Below are positions 50,472 to 58,858 of a stretch of DNA of 64,000 bases, in pieces. The stretch is taken from contig NZ_JAFBBD010000004.1 of the NCBI RefSeq assembly GCF_016906995.1, positions 124,001 to 188,000 of the forward strand. The letters run 5' to 3'. The notes under the pieces are model-generated. The model did not search any database. It saw only the letters and a list, made by a program, of their open reading frames with translations, and had not been told where the DNA came from. The first letter of the stretch is position 1; every line of letters starts with the position of its first letter. Position numbers and translations under genes: made by a program. This DNA is from Spongiibacter marinus (lineage in GTDB: Bacteria; Pseudomonadota; Gammaproteobacteria; Pseudomonadales; Spongiibacteraceae).

Positions 50472-51083
50472 CTAATCCTTCAACAGCAATACCCCAGACG
50501 CAGCGATCAGTCCAACTCCCGCCGCCGCTTCACCCCGCTTGGCGATCACCGGCAATCCTTGCACCAGTCGCTGCGCAAGCAACACATATAACAATTTCAC
50601 GCCACCAACGGCCGCCACCGTGATTGCCGCAATTGCCAGGACATCTCCCGGCAACACACTTTGCATGTCGACAAATAGCGGCAATAGACTGGCGTAGAAA
50701 ACCACCGCTTTCAGATCTGCAAGTGTCACCACCAAGCCCGCGATAGCACTAGTGCAAAGCGAGCCGGGCGCCGCCGGTAAGGCCTGAGAGCGACCGGCGC
50801 GGGATGATAGCAACAAGCGTAAGCCCACACTCAGTAGAAGCAGCGCTGCGGCAATCTTAACCACGATAAACACCGCGCCCATAGCCTGAGCCAGCGCGGC
50901 AACACCGCCAATCGCTAGGCCGACAAACAGCAGGTCGCCAATAACAATACCCAGCGCTGCGGCAAGACCGTGGCGCCGACCACCGCGCAAACTGCAGGCG
51001 ACTACCAGCAACACACTACTACTTGGTAGCGCTGCCAGCGCCATCATTGCCAGCGCCAAGCCCAGCATCGCTGCAACGCTCAT
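50472..51083 (-). CDS. LysE-family exporter
   Basis: A 203-residue membrane protein with the LysE/RhtB plan: six hydrophobic segments, LPSSSVLLVVACSLRGGRRHGLAAALGIVIGD (the conserved GxxxGxxxxxGxxxGD style) and SAIAGLVVTLADLKAVVFYASL. These exporters remove amino acids or other small molecules. ATG 51083 overlaps the hydrolase stop as ATGA, so the two are coupled. Last gene of the Rieske-like cluster. Confidence 0.85.
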   Translation of the reverse strand: MSVAAMLGLALAMMALAALPSSSVLLVVACSLRGGRRHGLAAALGIVIGDLLFVGLAIGGVAALAQAMGAVFIVVKIAAALLLLSVGLRLLLSSRAGRSQALPAAPGSLCTSAIAGLVVTLADLKAVVFYASLLPLFVDMQSVLPGDVLAIAAITVAAVGGVKLLYVLLAQRLVQGLPVIAKRGEAAAGVGLIAASGVLLLKD

Positions 51084-51958
51084 GGCTGCACCTGCGCACA
51101 ACGGCGCTCCGCGTCGTTAATAAAGTCGATGGCCAAAGACTCAAAGCGCGCTTTGCACTCAATCATCGCCCAGTGACCGCAGTTGGGGAAAACATGCAAC
51201 TCGGCATTGGGGATCATCCGCATAGGCAACAAGCTGATATCCAGCGGACTCACGCGGTCATCCCGTCCCCAGGTAATTAGCGTCGGCGCCTGAATGCTGG
51301 GCAAATGCGCGACCACCTGCGCGGCGTTTTCTCCCCGCCGGTAATCGGCAATTGCAGCGATCGCCGACCGAGAATACAGCGCCCGAGTGGTCGCCAGGGT
51401 GACGGGCTCAGTTGCCGCCGCGTATCGCGCCTCGAGCAGTTCGTCAGTAATAATCGCCTGATCGTAAACCATGGATACCAACCAACGTCGTAAATTTTCG
51501 CGGCTAGGTTGCTCGGTAAAGGCGGTTAGCAAGTTCAGCCCCTCCCCAGGAAAAGCGCTGAACAGATTCAAGCCAATTCCGCCGATAGTCATAAAGCTGG
51601 CGACCCGCTCGGGATACTGCGCCGCAATATACGAACCGACGATGCCACCCAAGGAGTTACCAATAATATGTACGCGGGAAACATCCAGGGTATCGAGCAG
51701 CTCAACACAGGCGGCCACGCAGCTTTGTACCGGGTCTCCGTCTCGCGCATCGCTGCCGCCGTAGCCGGGCAAGTCAGGCATGATGCAGCGAAAATGCTCG
51801 GCAAATACGGGCAAATTGTCGCGATAATTCGCCCAGGCATTCACCCCTGGGCCAGAGCCGTGGATCAGCATCACACAGGGACCGTTGCCCGCGTCGTAAT
51901 ACTGAATACCACCGCCGGGCAACGCGGCGTATTGCGGGCTTTGATCGATTTTAGACAT
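51080..51958 (-). CDS. Alpha/beta hydrolase, meta-cleavage-product type
   Basis: A 292-residue C-C-bond hydrolase-like enzyme. Oxyanion motif HGSGPGVNAWANYRDNLP is the hallmark of BphD/HsaD-type meta-cleavage hydrolases. The nucleophile Ser102 is in GNSLGG, the acid is Asp233/234 in WGRDDRVSPLD, and the base is His262 in FPNCGHWAMIE. All are intact. These enzymes act after extradiol cleavage of a ring, but no extradiol dioxygenase gene is visible in the window. It follows the SRPBCC gene by 18 bp and is coupled to the exporter. Confidence 0.9.
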   Translation of the reverse strand: MSKIDQSPQYAALPGGGIQYYDAGNGPCVMLIHGSGPGVNAWANYRDNLPVFAEHFRCIMPDLPGYGGSDARDGDPVQSCVAACVELLDTLDVSRVHIIGNSLGGIVGSYIAAQYPERVASFMTIGGIGLNLFSAFPGEGLNLLTAFTEQPSRENLRRWLVSMVYDQAIITDELLEARYAAATEPVTLATTRALYSRSAIAAIADYRRGENAAQVVAHLPSIQAPTLITWGRDDRVSPLDISLLPMRMIPNAELHVFPNCGHWAMIECKARFESLAIDFINDAERRCAQVQP

Positions 51959-51976: not shown

Positions 51977-52447
51977 TTAAACGCCAGCAGCCTCGCACTG
52001 CTGCTTTAAGGCCGCCAAGTATTGCTGGTATACCTCACTGTGGGCGCGACTGCCCTGAAGAACAAAGCCGAGTCGAGCGAACCAGCTCAGGGCCTCCACC
52101 CGGCAGTGATAACTGGCCAATGTTTCCTGCCCGTGCTGCTCGAAACACCATACCCCGGTACCACGCAAGTCTCCATCGATATACCGCTCCTCAATGCGCT
52201 CGCCGTCCACGATACGCTCTATACGGCGTGTAAAGCGGCTCAGCACAAATGGCGGACGACCATAGCAGTGCTGCACAAGCGCGCCCTCCTTGATATCGCC
52301 ACCGCCCTCCACACTGCATGAATAGGGCGGGAACCAGTTGGCGATTGCCGGATAATTCGCCACGGTCGCGAATACCCGTTGAGCGGGTGCGCGAATGTGT
52401 ATGCTGTCGACAACATCAATATTTAAGCGATCCTTCAAACTGCGCAT
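51977..52447 (-). CDS. SRPBCC (polyketide cyclase/START-like) protein
   Basis: A 156-residue soluble protein: DSIHIRAPAQRVFATVANYPAIANWFPPY at the start, then GGGDIKEGALVQHCYGRPPFVLSRFTRRIERIVDGERI, and the hydrophobic C-terminal helix, all typical of the hydrophobic-pocket SRPBCC fold. ATG 52447 has AAAGGAGAGA upstream; the open frame to 52510 is less likely. It may bind the hydrophobic substrate or product of the neighbouring oxygenase-like protein (inference from cluster position). Confidence 0.8.
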   Translation of the reverse strand: MRSLKDRLNIDVVDSIHIRAPAQRVFATVANYPAIANWFPPYSCSVEGGGDIKEGALVQHCYGRPPFVLSRFTRRIERIVDGERIEERYIDGDLRGTGVWCFEQHGQETLASYHCRVEALSWFARLGFVLQGSRAHSEVYQQYLAALKQQCEAAGV

Positions 52448-52546
52448 GCTTTTCTCTCCTTTCCCTGGTATTGCTTTGCTTAACATTGCTTTGCTCGGCG
52501 CTGCTTCCATGAGCGGTGAATAGCGGCCCCAATTGGGGCCGCTATA

Positions 52547-53458
52547 TTAGTCATAACGCAACTGGTACTCGCGGTAGCGCAGACGCTCTTCATTGATCTC
52601 CGCCAGCGGCTGATAAAACTGTGCGTACCAGGTTCTCAGTTTGTGGATCGGGCCATCACCATCGCAGAGAATGGGGTTGTCGATGCGCGTCTTGTTGTGC
52701 CATATCGCCACATCCTCAGCAAAGGCCTCAAAAGCCTTCTCCGCATACATTTTGCACAGCTCAGCATTTTGCGCCTCGTTCAAAAGGGGCAGGCGCTTCA
52801 CCATCACCGCGTAGCGAATATCAAAGCATTCGCGCGCCACCGGCAAGTGGCTGAGCAGCAGGTAGCTTTCAACGGTGTGGCCGTCGTAACTGCCGCGCAT
52901 ATACGTTGTTTGGTAGGCCGGGCCATAGTATTTGGCGTAGCTATACAGCTCGCTCTCCGCCGACAGGCGTTCGCTGTGGCCGCGCATTTCCTGCACAAAG
53001 GTGTGGCCATCCATAACGTTGCGAAAGCTGCGCACATTTGCACCATGCACGGGACCAAAGTGCGCCGCATCGGCCATATTGTCGATCAGCTCGCGGCAAT
53101 TGGCGTGTATGCGGTACTCCCGCATCTGCCAGCGGCTCCACTGGCGCGTATCGCACTCGCCCATAATTGGCGGCTCCTGCATAGCCAGCGGCGGATTGCC
53201 ATCGGGGTCGTACCAGCAGAGCAACAAGCGGTTGCGGGCCAGGGTCGGCAGACGCTGGCCATTGAGACTCGCGTCAATCTGTGAGCCGCGACAACGCACG
53301 ACGACCTTGCCGCCAAAACCGTCGATGTTTTGCGGGCTGTCCGCAGGCGGGCGAAAATCGTCGAGTAATCCAAGGCAAAACCACCCCCTCGGGTAGCGGT
53401 CGGGTATGTCCTCCGCCTGAATTTGGTAGGGAGGAAAAGGCGGGCGTTGTTGTGACAT
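52547..53458 (-). CDS. Rieske-type oxygenase homologue lacking the Rieske cluster domain
   Basis: A 303-residue protein that begins like a KshA-type Rieske oxygenase (YPRGWFCLGL) and ends like one. The [2Fe-2S] lobe is missing. After GGKVVVRCRGSQ the sequence goes straight to NRLLLCWYDPDGNPP, with no CxH or CxxH pair. The catalytic domain is kept: NMADAAHFGPVH carries Asn127, bridging Asp130, His133 and His138, and Asp249 in EDVAIWHNK completes the iron triad. Family members are about 350-390 aa, so about 60 residues are lost cleanly in frame. ATG 53458 follows GGAG. First gene of the leftward cluster with SRPBCC, hydrolase and exporter. Confidence 0.85.
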   Translation of the reverse strand: MSQQRPPFPPYQIQAEDIPDRYPRGWFCLGLLDDFRPPADSPQNIDGFGGKVVVRCRGSQIDASLNGQRLPTLARNRLLLCWYDPDGNPPLAMQEPPIMGECDTRQWSRWQMREYRIHANCRELIDNMADAAHFGPVHGANVRSFRNVMDGHTFVQEMRGHSERLSAESELYSYAKYYGPAYQTTYMRGSYDGHTVESYLLLSHLPVARECFDIRYAVMVKRLPLLNEAQNAELCKMYAEKAFEAFAEDVAIWHNKTRIDNPILCDGDGPIHKLRTWYAQFYQPLAEINEERLRYREYQLRYD

Positions 53459-53790: not shown

Positions 53791-56205
53791 ATGACGTTAC
53801 GCACGCTGCTTTTCCCGTCGAGGAAGTCGCTCGGCTTACTCTTGCTCACCCTCATGCTCGCCGCCTGTGGTGGCTCGAGCAGCAACTCTTCTAGCAATAA
53901 CTCAGGAGGCAGCACTGACAGCGACCGCGACGGCATTGCCGACACCCGAGATCAGTGCCCCGCCACGCCCAGTAGCGAAATCGCCAACAGCAACGGCTGT
54001 TCTGCCTCGCAGTTGGATGACGACGGCGACGGCGTGAGCAACCAATCTGACAGTTGCCCGGCAACCCCAAGCAACACCGATGTCGATGCTCAGGGCTGCG
54101 CGATTACGGTTGAAGATGCTGACGGCGACGGGGTTGCAGATGCCAACGACAGCTGCCCAGCCACGCCAGCGGGAGAAAGCGTCGATACCAATGGCTGTTC
54201 CGCCTCACAGCTGGATGACGACAATGACGGCGTTAACAACAGCAGCGACAACTGCCCAAATACAGCGGCAGGCGTCACGGTGGATGCCAATGGCTGCAGT
54301 AATAGTCAAAACGGCGACAACGATGGCGACGGCGTTGGCAATGCCCAGGATCTCTGCCCACTGACACCGGCAGGTGCCAGCGTTGACCAAAATGGCTGCT
54401 CCGACGCGCAGCGCGACGACGATGGCGACGGTGTAAGCAATGGTCAAGACGACTGCCCGGCCACCCCGACAACGGAAACCGCCAATGTTCAGGGCTGCTC
54501 ACCCTCACAACTGGACGACGATAACGATGGCGTCAATAACGCCGACGACACCTGCCCCAATACCACTGCCGGCGCAACCGTCGACAGCGAGGGCTGCAGT
54601 AATGTGCAAAAAGATGACAACGACGGCGACGGAGTGCTCAATGGCAATGACCAGTGCCCCAATACCCCGCCAGGCACCGCTGTTGAAGCCGATGGCTGCC
54701 CACCAGCGACCATTACCGACGGCATCTCCTACGATGTAAACCTTGCATCGAATGTCGATGGCGAAAATATTGCGTTCACCCTGCACGAGCCCACATCGCT
54801 GTCTTCAGAGGAAAGCTATCCGCTGATTTTGCACAGCCATGGCTACTCTGGCAGCCGTCAGTCAAGCCGCCCCACCGGTGGCTTGCTGAAAGCCTTACTC
54901 GACGAAGGCTTTTACGTGCTGAGTCTGGATGAACGTGGCCACGGTGACTCCGGTGGCACCATCCGCATTTTGGACCCCGACCTGGAAGGCAAAGACTGGC
55001 TACAAGTGCTGGACTGGGCCGAAGAGAATCTGAGTCAGCTTGCCTATGCGGATAATGGCCCGACTCCCGCTACCGAGAAAGACAATCCGCTGATCGGCGC
55101 CATCGGAGGCTCCTACGGTGGCGGTTATCAATTAATGATCTACGCGATTGACCCAGAACACCGCCTGGACGCGATCGCCCCGGACATTACCTGGAACGAT
55201 CTGCGCTATTCCCTGTACCCAAACGATGTGTTTAAAACGTTTTGGGCAATCTTACTGTCGGCTGGCGGCAACCTGGCTGGCAATCAAGACCAGGAAGTCA
55301 ACGAAGGCCTTGCCATCGGCTTGGCAGCAAACACCCTGGCCGACGATAAGCTAGCGCTACTATACCGCCACAGCCCGGCCTCACACTGCGCCGGTGAGAA
55401 CGACACAACAGCCGACGGCAGCTTGCGGTCGATTGACGCGTTCATTACCCAGTCCCACATGGATACCCTGTTTAACTTTAATGATGCCTACCGAAACTAC
55501 CGCTGTTTGAGTGATCAGGGCGGCGATGTGCGCTTGTTCACCAAAGCCGCCGGCCACGGCATCGACAGTGGCGACGGTCAAAGTGTCTGCGGACGCTTAA
55601 ATACTACCGACACAACCGTGAGCTGGTTTCAAGAAAAGCTACAGTTTGTGCAAGGCGCGGCCGATGAGATTCCCGAGGTCTGCTTCAATTTAGGCAGTGA
55701 AGGCAATGATGGCATCGTACTCAACGATGTGCCCTACGGCGGAGACAACTTTGCCTTTAGCAGCCCGCTGCCGATCATTGCCCACGAAGCCAACCTGCTA
55801 CCCACTGAGATTGAGCTCTACACCGCCCAGGCGGACAATGAGGTAATCGCCGGCGTACCGACAATCAGCTTGAGCATGAGCATTGCCAATCAGCAAGCAG
55901 ATGCCCCACTGCTTGAGCCCATTGTGTTTGTCGGACTGGCCATTAGAGAATCCGGCGACAGCAACCCGCTTCAGGCGCCCACGCCGTTGATGAACCAGGT
56001 AACACCTTTCAGAGGCTTCGGCGATCACAATGTCGACTTGGTCGGGGTGATGAGCCGCATGCAAAGCGGCGACAAGCTGGTGCTGATGGTCTATGGCTCC
56101 TACCCCAGCCAGTACGCCACCTCAGCGTCTCCCCTACCCATTCCTGTGCAAATTAGCGGCTCGGTAGCGGTTCCACTGCTGGCACCGCAACAAACGGCGC
56201 CCTAA
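53791..56205 (+). CDS. Lipoprotein with eight thrombospondin type 3 repeats and an alpha/beta hydrolase domain
   Basis: An 804-residue surface or periplasmic lipoprotein. The signal ends in lipobox LMLAAC (lipid Cys26). A Ser/Asn linker leads to eight calcium-binding TSP3-like repeats (about 43-303), each with D-x-D-x-D-G-x-x-x-x-x-D then CP and GC. The C-terminal part is a CocE/acyl-hydrolase-like domain: YPLILHSHGYSGSRQSS, LSLDERGHGDSGG, nucleophile Ser441 in GGSYGGGYQ, and KAAGHGID for the base. Calcium-stiffened stalk plus enzyme is inferred. ATG 53791 is chosen by the lipobox. Divergent from the Rieske-like cluster and closed by its own terminator. Confidence 0.88.
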   Translation: MTLRTLLFPSRKSLGLLLLTLMLAACGGSSSNSSSNNSGGSTDSDRDGIADTRDQCPATPSSEIANSNGCSASQLDDDGDGVSNQSDSCPATPSNTDVDAQGCAITVEDADGDGVADANDSCPATPAGESVDTNGCSASQLDDDNDGVNNSSDNCPNTAAGVTVDANGCSNSQNGDNDGDGVGNAQDLCPLTPAGASVDQNGCSDAQRDDDGDGVSNGQDDCPATPTTETANVQGCSPSQLDDDNDGVNNADDTCPNTTAGATVDSEGCSNVQKDDNDGDGVLNGNDQCPNTPPGTAVEADGCPPATITDGISYDVNLASNVDGENIAFTLHEPTSLSSEESYPLILHSHGYSGSRQSSRPTGGLLKALLDEGFYVLSLDERGHGDSGGTIRILDPDLEGKDWLQVLDWAEENLSQLAYADNGPTPATEKDNPLIGAIGGSYGGGYQLMIYAIDPEHRLDAIAPDITWNDLRYSLYPNDVFKTFWAILLSAGGNLAGNQDQEVNEGLAIGLAANTLADDKLALLYRHSPASHCAGENDTTADGSLRSIDAFITQSHMDTLFNFNDAYRNYRCLSDQGGDVRLFTKAAGHGIDSGDGQSVCGRLNTTDTTVSWFQEKLQFVQGAADEIPEVCFNLGSEGNDGIVLNDVPYGGDNFAFSSPLPIIAHEANLLPTEIELYTAQADNEVIAGVPTISLSMSIANQQADAPLLEPIVFVGLAIRESGDSNPLQAPTPLMNQVTPFRGFGDHNVDLVGVMSRMQSGDKLVLMVYGSYPSQYATSASPLPIPVQISGSVAVPLLAPQQTAP
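53917..54699 (+). repeat. TSP3-repeat coding array
   Basis: About 783 bp encoding eight imperfect units of about 31-35 codons. DNA identity between units is partial, with recurring GACGACGGCGACGGCG-type stretches, so they are old protein repeats rather than fresh tandem duplications. Confidence 0.8.
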
Positions 56206-56392: not shown

Positions 56393-58858
56393 TTAGCCTC
56401 CCCAGTTGTAGATCAAATCCAGACCGTAGCTGCGCGGCTCACCAAACATTACTGAGCGGCCCGCCTGCGGTAAATTGTGAACGTTGTTAACGCTGTATTC
56501 CTCGTCGAGCACATTTTTGCTCCACACTGCTACATCCAACACGCCGTCAAATACCGGCAACTGATACCAACCCAGGCGCGCATTCAGTACGGCAAAGTCG
56601 TCCTGACGGTCAGCCTGGAAGGTCGCGAATTCCTTTCGTCCACCGCCATTGCGTTCATCAGTAAATGAGTAGGTGGCATTGAAGGCAATATTGCCCCTGT
56701 CCAAGCTACTCCACAGCGTCCAATCAAGCATCGCCGTGTAGGCGTGTCGCGGCGCCGAATCAAACACGAAGCCATCGTCGATATCGCCAGATAGCGGATT
56801 GCGGCTGGGCGCAATTTCCGCATCTAAGTAGGCATAGTTGAGCACGAGCATAAGGTGCTCTGTCGCCAGCCAGGTCGTGTCCATCTCAAAACCTTTGAGT
56901 GTGGACTCGCCGGCATTGGCTACGGTGGTGTCGCTGGTGGTATTGGGCACACTAAAGTTCAACTGCTGATCGACAAAATCCTGCTGAAAAATATCGGCAT
57001 TCACCTGTAAGCGATTGCTAAGTAAACGCGACTTCATCCCCAGCTCGTAGGCGGTCACCTTCTCTTCATCAAAGCCGTCGATATAACGCTGAGCGCCCTC
57101 TTCGGTAACCTGCTCGCGGGTATTGAAGCCACCGCTTTTGTAGGCTTCATTGACCTTAAAGTAGAGGTTGATATCGTCGCTCAGCTCATACTCGGCGATG
57201 AAGCTAAAGGAGTCGTCTTTAAAGTCTTTATCGCCGCGCACATCATAAAAGACATCAGACAACTGGGTGGCAATGTCGTTGTTGTCGCGGTCGGTGTTAT
57301 CCAAATCGCCCGGCACAACCACAAAACTGATCTGGCGGCGCAGCGCGGCAGACTTTCGGTTGTCTTCGGAATGGCGCGCACCAAAGGTCAGGCTGAGGCG
57401 GTCGTCCAGCACCGGTGGCTGCCAGGTAAACTGTGCAAACATTGCCATTGCGGTGTTTTCGATATCAAAACGCGCCTCGGTGAGCACCTCAATACGGTTG
57501 CCGGTGTTGTTGCCATCGACAGTGCTGCCCAAGGGTGCAGACAGCAGGTGCCCTATTTTGCCCGCGCCCTGGGTAGCCGTTTCTTCAAAGTAATAGAGCC
57601 CGGTGATGTAAGACAGACGCCCCGCAAACGCACTGCCGGATAACTGCAATTCGTGAGAGAACTGATCCTGATCGATCAATGGATGAACTGCCCCGTACTG
57701 CTCACTGCGGCCAACACAGGGACTACACACTGCCGAATCACCGGGTATTGCCGCGACGGGAAAACTGAACACCGGGCTATTATCTAAGCGATAGCCATCG
57801 CTGCGCGCGCCAGTTGCCAATATGGTTGGCGTGTTGTCGTAGAGCTCGCGCTGGGCATAGATGTATTTCGCCGCCAGTGTTTCGCTAATCTGCCAGTCGA
57901 CCGACAGTTGATGGCCGGAAATTTCGCTGTCGGCCTCTTCCATAGGGATAGCCGAGTGTATTCGGTCAGGGCGGTTGCCCGAGGAATTAAAGTTGTAAAA
58001 CTGCCGCGCCCCCGAGTTAATTAAATTGGTGAAGGCGATGCCCTGATTGACCTCTGGATTGGGAATGGGGTCGGAAGGCCGGATATGGGAGTAGACCATA
58101 TTGGTGTTTGTCACCTCAGCCAGGTCATAGGCGTAATCGATATGGACGCTATCTGAAACATCCCAGGCGAAATCAATGCGGTAACCCATCGTATCGGAAT
58201 CACCAAAGTCACCACCTGCGCCGGTGTTTTCAATATAGCCGTCTACCTGCTTGGTGAAGTAGGCAAACTTGGCCGCAGCGCCCTGCCAGAGCGGCGTATT
58301 CAGCATGGTTTTACTACTGAAGAGATTGCGGTCGCCAAGGGTAAATGCCTGCTTGAACTGCGCCGCATCGACATTGGGGCGGCGAGTAATCAGATTAACG
58401 GCGCCGCCGGTGGAATTGCGGCCATAGAGCGTACCCTGCGGTCCGCGCAAAACCTCAATTCGCGTTAGATCTGCAAGGTCAGTAGCTAGAGCCGCAGAAC
58501 GGGCGATATAAGCGCCATCGACATACACGCCTACTGGCGGATCCTGGGTGATCTGGGCATCGATCAGGCCAATACCGCGAATATAGATACGCAGAGTGGT
58601 GGTATTGATCGGAAACGGCTGGATGGTCATTGCCGGCACGTTGTTGGCAAGATCGCCCACGCCGCCAATGCCTTCGCGCTCCAGTGCCTCTTCACCAAAG
58701 GCATCCAGCGCGATTGGCGTGTCCTGCAAACTCTCCGCTTTTTTCTGCGCGGTCACCACCACTTCTTCCAAGGCTGGCTGCGCACCCGCTGAACCTGCCA
58801 CCCCGAGCGAGGCAATAAGCAGGCCACTGGCCCACCGCCGACAACTGCACTTCATCAT
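56393..58858 (-). CDS. TonB-dependent outer-membrane receptor
   Basis: An 821-residue receptor. Signal SGLLIASLGVAGSAGA is followed by LEEVVVTAQKKAESLQDTPIAL (TonB-box region), the plug with IRGIGLIDAQITQDPPVGVYVDGAYIARS and RIEVLRGPQGTLYGRNSTGGAVN, and the barrel ending YGLDLIYNWGG. TAGGAAG lies before the ATG pair. The family contains many catabolic-substrate receptors of marine bacteria. It lies between the calcium-repeat lipoprotein and the sterol-desaturase-like gene. The ligand is unknown, and no Fur box precedes it. Confidence 0.93.
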   Translation of the reverse strand: MMKCSCRRWASGLLIASLGVAGSAGAQPALEEVVVTAQKKAESLQDTPIALDAFGEEALEREGIGGVGDLANNVPAMTIQPFPINTTTLRIYIRGIGLIDAQITQDPPVGVYVDGAYIARSAALATDLADLTRIEVLRGPQGTLYGRNSTGGAVNLITRRPNVDAAQFKQAFTLGDRNLFSSKTMLNTPLWQGAAAKFAYFTKQVDGYIENTGAGGDFGDSDTMGYRIDFAWDVSDSVHIDYAYDLAEVTNTNMVYSHIRPSDPIPNPEVNQGIAFTNLINSGARQFYNFNSSGNRPDRIHSAIPMEEADSEISGHQLSVDWQISETLAAKYIYAQRELYDNTPTILATGARSDGYRLDNSPVFSFPVAAIPGDSAVCSPCVGRSEQYGAVHPLIDQDQFSHELQLSGSAFAGRLSYITGLYYFEETATQGAGKIGHLLSAPLGSTVDGNNTGNRIEVLTEARFDIENTAMAMFAQFTWQPPVLDDRLSLTFGARHSEDNRKSAALRRQISFVVVPGDLDNTDRDNNDIATQLSDVFYDVRGDKDFKDDSFSFIAEYELSDDINLYFKVNEAYKSGGFNTREQVTEEGAQRYIDGFDEEKVTAYELGMKSRLLSNRLQVNADIFQQDFVDQQLNFSVPNTTSDTTVANAGESTLKGFEMDTTWLATEHLMLVLNYAYLDAEIAPSRNPLSGDIDDGFVFDSAPRHAYTAMLDWTLWSSLDRGNIAFNATYSFTDERNGGGRKEFATFQADRQDDFAVLNARLGWYQLPVFDGVLDVAVWSKNVLDEEYSVNNVHNLPQAGRSVMFGEPRSYGLDLIYNWGG

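Follow-up and report, generated by a model that had tools for sequence, protein, structure and literature searches.

Rieske oxygenases depend on electron transfer between subunits. In their trimers, each iron is supplied from the Rieske cluster of an adjacent subunit, about 12 Å away, via a bridging Asp (PMC12445004, PMC4064121), and the limit to which cluster and iron may be uncoupled has been hard to probe. A gene of Spongiibacter marinus raises this question in a natural protein. Located at 52547..53458 on the minus strand of the window (the whole stretch of 64,000 nucleotides that was analyzed), it encodes a product of 303 residues that the original prediction, made from the sequence alone, described as a KshA-type oxygenase lacking its Rieske cluster. 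Is this lobe-less protein, as it is called here, a decaying remnant, a protein turned to another use, or a catalytic subunit that draws its electrons from a cluster on another polypeptide?

A KshA-Type Subunit Without Its Cluster

A Pfam search of the protein recovered the complete KshA_C profile (PF19298; profile positions 1-207, residues 81-282, E=2e-68), which rules out a chance resemblance to KshA, and returned no match to a Rieske domain, as had been predicted; both domains were matched in two intact paralogues of the same genome, L002 and L003. When the protein was used as a phmmer query against the PDB, KshA entries alone appeared at E <=0.01, with query residues 12-56 and 70-299 aligning to residues 18-60 and 123-361 of KshA5. 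Structure prediction, which had been proposed as a check on the resemblance, led to the same family. The AF2 model (pLDDT 82, pTM 0.82) found only KshA among its top Foldseek matches in the PDB (E about 1e-28), with TM-scores of 0.82-0.85 over the query and just 0.69-0.71 over the target, compared with 0.83-0.85 and 0.80-0.85, respectively, for the model of an intact control. Five strands are kept before residue 84; the control model has the same five plus strands 60-64, 78-80, 83-85, and 98-101. In both sequence and predicted fold, then, the protein has the catalytic domain of the KshA family, the C-terminal helix-grip domain.

The extent of the loss was defined by an alignment of 30 sequences, in which 21 residues separate the invariant positions G49 and P71 in the lobe-less protein vs 70-71 residues in the 29 intact relatives. 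The 49 absent residues were removed in frame, and both cluster ligand pairs, CxH and CxxH, fall within the lost stretch. The window copy of the gene contains no frameshift, so the clean gap of the original prediction is real, although smaller than the 60 or so residues that had been estimated. The excision junction itself, residues 49-69 (53252..53314, minus strand; the GKVVVRCRGSQIDASLNGQR region), stands in place of about 70 residues in the relatives. Of the positions with a conservation of 90% or more among the relatives, 12/12 are retained by the window protein in the N-terminal basal part (residues 1-56), 1/6 in the junction (57-70), 6/9 in residues 71-99, and 58/60 in the catalytic domain (100-303), the iron-ligand triad and bridging Asp included. 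One alignment places C56 at the position of the second Rieske cysteine; this residue was not counted as a relic because FGGKVVVRCRG fits FGTRLVAYRG better and no flanking ligands are left. The CxH...CxxH ligands of the [2Fe-2S] cluster, by which the alpha subunit of a Rieske oxygenase is defined, are therefore lacking from a protein that otherwise has the features of the catalytic half.

The Iron Site and the Substrate Pocket

Work on KshA of Mycobacterium tuberculosis, the oxygenase of 3-ketosteroid 9alpha-hydroxylase, identified D178 as the bridging Asp and H181, H186, and D304 as the iron ligands (PMC4064121). In an alignment to the PDB entry of this enzyme (2ZYL), these residues correspond to D130, H133, H138, and D249 of the lobe-less protein, exactly the positions named in the original prediction. 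Asp130, His133, and His138 are encoded at 53045..53071 and Asp249 by the codon at 52712..52714, both on the minus strand. The triad is thus complete, and Fe(II) is probably still bound through it.

Eight substrate-contact residues listed for KshA (PMC4064121) were also compared. Q204, Y232, F301, and W308 are retained, as Q156, Y177, F246, and W253, while M238 and N257 are replaced by Q183 and L202 at positions where the relatives mostly have M and V. KshA proper acts with KshB to hydroxylate 3-ketosteroids; because of these two replacements in the pocket, the substrate of the lobe-less protein is probably a different one.

A complete facial triad would also suit an iron peroxygenase acting alone, in which H2O2 loads the ferrous site directly and no cluster is needed. 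This peroxide shunt is established Rieske oxygenase chemistry (PMC9615114). Nevertheless, such an activity seems highly improbable here, as the operon encodes no peroxide-generating partner, the residue known to link the two metal centers, Asp130, is conserved, and the shunt failed for chlorophyllide a oxygenase (CAO) (PMC9615114).

Selection Since the Deletion

The genome of Neomelitea salexigens DSM 19753, which is placed under Spongiibacter marinus in the NCBI taxonomy and is referred to here as S. marinus DSM 19753, carries the same deletion with identical junction residues, on the sole contig matched in the search. An assembly error as the source of the deletion is thereby ruled out, since this assembly is independent. 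The two copies can be aligned in frame over 267 codons, in which they differ by 24 synonymous and 3 nonsynonymous changes (dS 0.154, dN 0.0048, dN/dS 0.031; binomial P=1e-13 vs the neutral expectation). Because both copies carry the deletion, the most economical reading of the sequence comparison is that it is older than their divergence and that it was the lobe-less protein on which selection acted; a dN/dS of 0.03 places that protein under purifying selection after the deletion, in support of the functional retention that had been proposed. Flanking genes show dS values of 0.14-0.27 and dN/dS values of 0.006-0.15, the dS of a TonB-dependent receptor gene (window 56393-58858) being an exception. 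At 0.57 this value is 2-4x that of its neighbors, which suggests allele exchange or a faster-evolving receptor.

A warning sign comes from the same genome. In the stretch that encodes residues 26-36 (L031:5001-5110), the S. marinus DSM 19753 copy is on balance 3 bases shorter at a run of ten G (G10) and lacks one more base slightly further on, so that the natural start falls out of frame; an upstream ATG opens a frame of 306 residues, of which the first 36 or so are unrelated. In this one assembly, the frameshift may reflect decay that set in recently, a fault in assembling the homopolymer, or a tract of variable length. It makes function of the gene in DSM 19753 less certain, while selection on it up to the recent past is as credible as before.

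The search for further cases was broad. The lobe-less protein was used to query samples of the family (21 genomes), the order (392), and the class (369), KshA_C was used for a phylum sample of 399 genomes, and plasmids were searched as well; no other lobe-less homologue was found in any of them. A regular expression flagged eight ORFs as lacking the Rieske motif, of which six merely have a longer spacing and do carry a Rieske domain. When read directly, 54 of the 56 distinct homologous ORFs retained the motif, the exceptions being the copies in the window and in S. marinus DSM 19753. The deletion is thus not unique to one genome, although it is confined to two among these samples. A literature search under the wording "lacks the Rieske" returned nothing relevant.

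Could the gene be a deletion allele that lost its activity and is now drifting, its frame already broken in S. marinus DSM 19753? The indels described above, the narrow distribution, and the long terminal branch of the protein in the tree (0.95) would all agree with decay. However, a dN/dS of 0.031 is far from 1, frame and operon are intact in the window, and the root-to-tip length is close to that of the fastest intact lineage, L042. Decay is accordingly considered unlikely, and this KshA-type subunit has undergone a loss of its Rieske cluster that is real, replicated, and selected.

Operon Structure and Pathway Context

The oxygenase gene is the first of four on the minus strand, separated by spacings of 90, 18, and -22 bp. 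It is followed by genes for an SRPBCC (Polyketide_cyc2) protein of 159 residues (51977..52456; Pfam E=8e-11), an HsaD-like meta-cleavage-product hydrolase of 292 residues (51080..51958; E=9e-76 to the NCBIfam HsaD model, below the equivalog cut-off, and E=8e-59 to HsaD in the PDB), and a LysE-type exporter (50472..51101; Pfam E=2e-20), whose gene overlaps that of the hydrolase by 22 bp. Divergent from this operon, at 53791-56205 of the window, lies a gene predicted to encode an S15-type hydrolase, in which thrombospondin type 3 repeats form an array at the N terminus.

The idea that relatives might keep the same neighbors was borne out in S. marinus DSM 19753 and failed beyond it, as the other genomes sampled from the genus lack the group of oxygenase, SRPBCC, and HsaD-like genes. 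Within the genus the SRPBCC gene occurs only in these two genomes, and outside them no genus member matches the hydrolase at more than 40% identity. Two further genera of the order have SRPBCC homologues, none of them near an oxygenase gene, and a class sample and plasmids contained no homologue, so these proteins do not reveal the origin of the gene cluster. In one of the two genera (L066:3715-8908), the SRPBCC homologue comes after a cluster of FAD-oxidase and TRAP-transporter genes, with no Rieske oxygenase.

The intact paralogues L002 and L003 lie on the same contig as the window, 113 and 148 kb off, and each is followed by HsaC-like and HsaA-like genes. With HsaC-/HsaA-like genes beside the paralogues and an HsaD-like gene in the same operon as the lobe-less protein, the operon and the two clusters would be parts of one kind of pathway. 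The two parallel clusters on the contig of the window (L060:6950-10214 and L059:7213-10388) each comprise an intact KshA-like oxygenase, an HsaC-like dioxygenase, and an HsaA-like monooxygenase; genes for 4-hydroxy-2-oxovalerate aldolase and other meta-pathway enzymes are found 4-7 kb from the former. Steroid degradation has been shown for isolates of the Spongiibacteraceae (PMC5790920). Given these isolates, the HsaD-like hydrolase, and the hsa-like genes by the paralogues, the operon is likely to take part in cleaving the ring of a steroid-like or aromatic compound.

The operon also bears on whether the protein is still an oxygenase. Its helix-grip (START-like) domain might bind a hydrophobic intermediate or carry out a redox-neutral step, with or without a metal, in line with the lyase, isomerase, or ligand-binding protein suggested in the original prediction. 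The loss of the cluster, the lack of a dedicated electron donor in the operon, the presence there of an SRPBCC protein of related fold, and the altered contact positions in the pocket are consistent with such a change. Conversely, a mere binding protein would be expected to have lost some of the three iron ligands, the bridging Asp, and the near-invariant catalytic residues, and these are kept almost entire. A non-oxygenase function is regarded as somewhat unlikely.

Possible Sources of Electrons

The reading that we prefer, tentatively and as somewhat short of an even chance, is that of a catalytic-only subunit served by a Rieske cluster in trans. A precise in-frame excision took out the cluster-binding subdomain and left behind part of the basal beta domain and the whole helix-grip catalytic domain. 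The bound iron would then activate O2 for reaction with a substrate from a pathway of steroid-like ring cleavage, with electrons arriving via Asp130 from a cluster on another polypeptide. The original prediction held that the protein could not accept electrons in the usual way. That its own cluster is lost is correct, but the conclusion is too sweeping for enzymes that are trimers. Within a KshA trimer, electrons pass through Asp178 from the cluster of one subunit to the iron of its neighbor (PMC4064121; see also PMC12445004), so that a subunit without a cluster might, in principle, obtain them from an intact one beside it, and a catalytic-only subunit, NdmC, is known to receive its Rieske cluster from NdmD (PMC4408171).

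Candidate partners were sought throughout the genome, which contains 12 Rieske places, all in ORFs of 125-427 residues, those above 340 residues being in ORFs of oxygenase size. None lies within the oxygenase operon, and a fusion of reductase and Rieske domain like NdmD is missing from the genome, as no Rieske place occurs in an ORF above 427 residues. A stand-alone Rieske ferredoxin is encoded 25 kb off (C4:201777-202139; L079:12775-13140), where its gene adjoins one for an Lrp-like regulator. The protein is identical (100%) in S. marinus DSM 19753; being present in 16 of the 18 genomes of the genus, it was not taken to be a dedicated partner. Paralogous chains that do carry a Rieske cluster, as in the two-chain CAO of Micromonas, exist in L002 and L003, and an intact paralogue that joins the lobe-less chain in a mixed trimer would be the most likely partner, the ferredoxin a less likely one. 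The more specific proposal, whereby a paralogue that has shed its cluster works in a mixed trimer with the Rieske cluster of an intact paralogue, the catalysis-only subunit giving a new substrate range, is rather unlikely when taken by itself, and we know of no bacterial case of a KshA-type mixed trimer with a cluster-less paralogue. Several observations weigh against service in trans of any kind: the two genomes that carry the lobe-less form are closely related, one of them has frame-shifting indels near codons 26-36, no Rieske partner is specific to the operon, and Asp130 may be conserved for the sake of the iron site alone.

Comparison With Known Split Oxygenases

A natural subunit that lacks only the cluster-binding part, keeps its iron site, and is under selection allows electron transfer in trans to be tested directly. 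Should it prove to be served in this way, it would represent, after NdmC, a second bacterial way of separating the cluster and iron halves; if it is no longer an oxygenase, it would exemplify the reuse of an iron-enzyme fold after loss of the redox module.

KshA (PDB 2ZYL, 4QDC) is the best match in sequence and fold, sharing the catalytic domain, the facial triad, and the bridging Asp. It differs in having a Rieske cluster in the same chain, where the lobe-less protein is without 49 residues that include the cluster ligands, and in the two pocket residues that have become Q and L. L002 and L003 are 46% and 45% identical to the lobe-less protein over the alignment and belong to clusters with hsa-like genes; they have a full Rieske domain and HsaC-/HsaA-like neighbors, whereas the lobe-less gene has SRPBCC and HsaD-like ones. 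NdmC of Pseudomonas putida CBB5, a non-heme iron oxygenase subunit from the NdmCDE complex, likewise lacks a Rieske cluster. However, its partners NdmD, a reductase with an extra Rieske domain, and the GST-like NdmE have no counterparts in the operon, where SRPBCC, HsaD-like hydrolase, and LysE genes are the neighbors, and the lobe-less protein is KshA-like in sequence, unlike NdmC. In the CAO of Micromonas, one functional Rieske oxygenase is formed from two polypeptides (PMC9615114), although this enzyme belongs to a eukaryotic family and the partner of the lobe-less protein is only putative. As judged from its sequence, the lobe-less protein would group with these few known split oxygenases, as a new variant with a presumed catalytic function.
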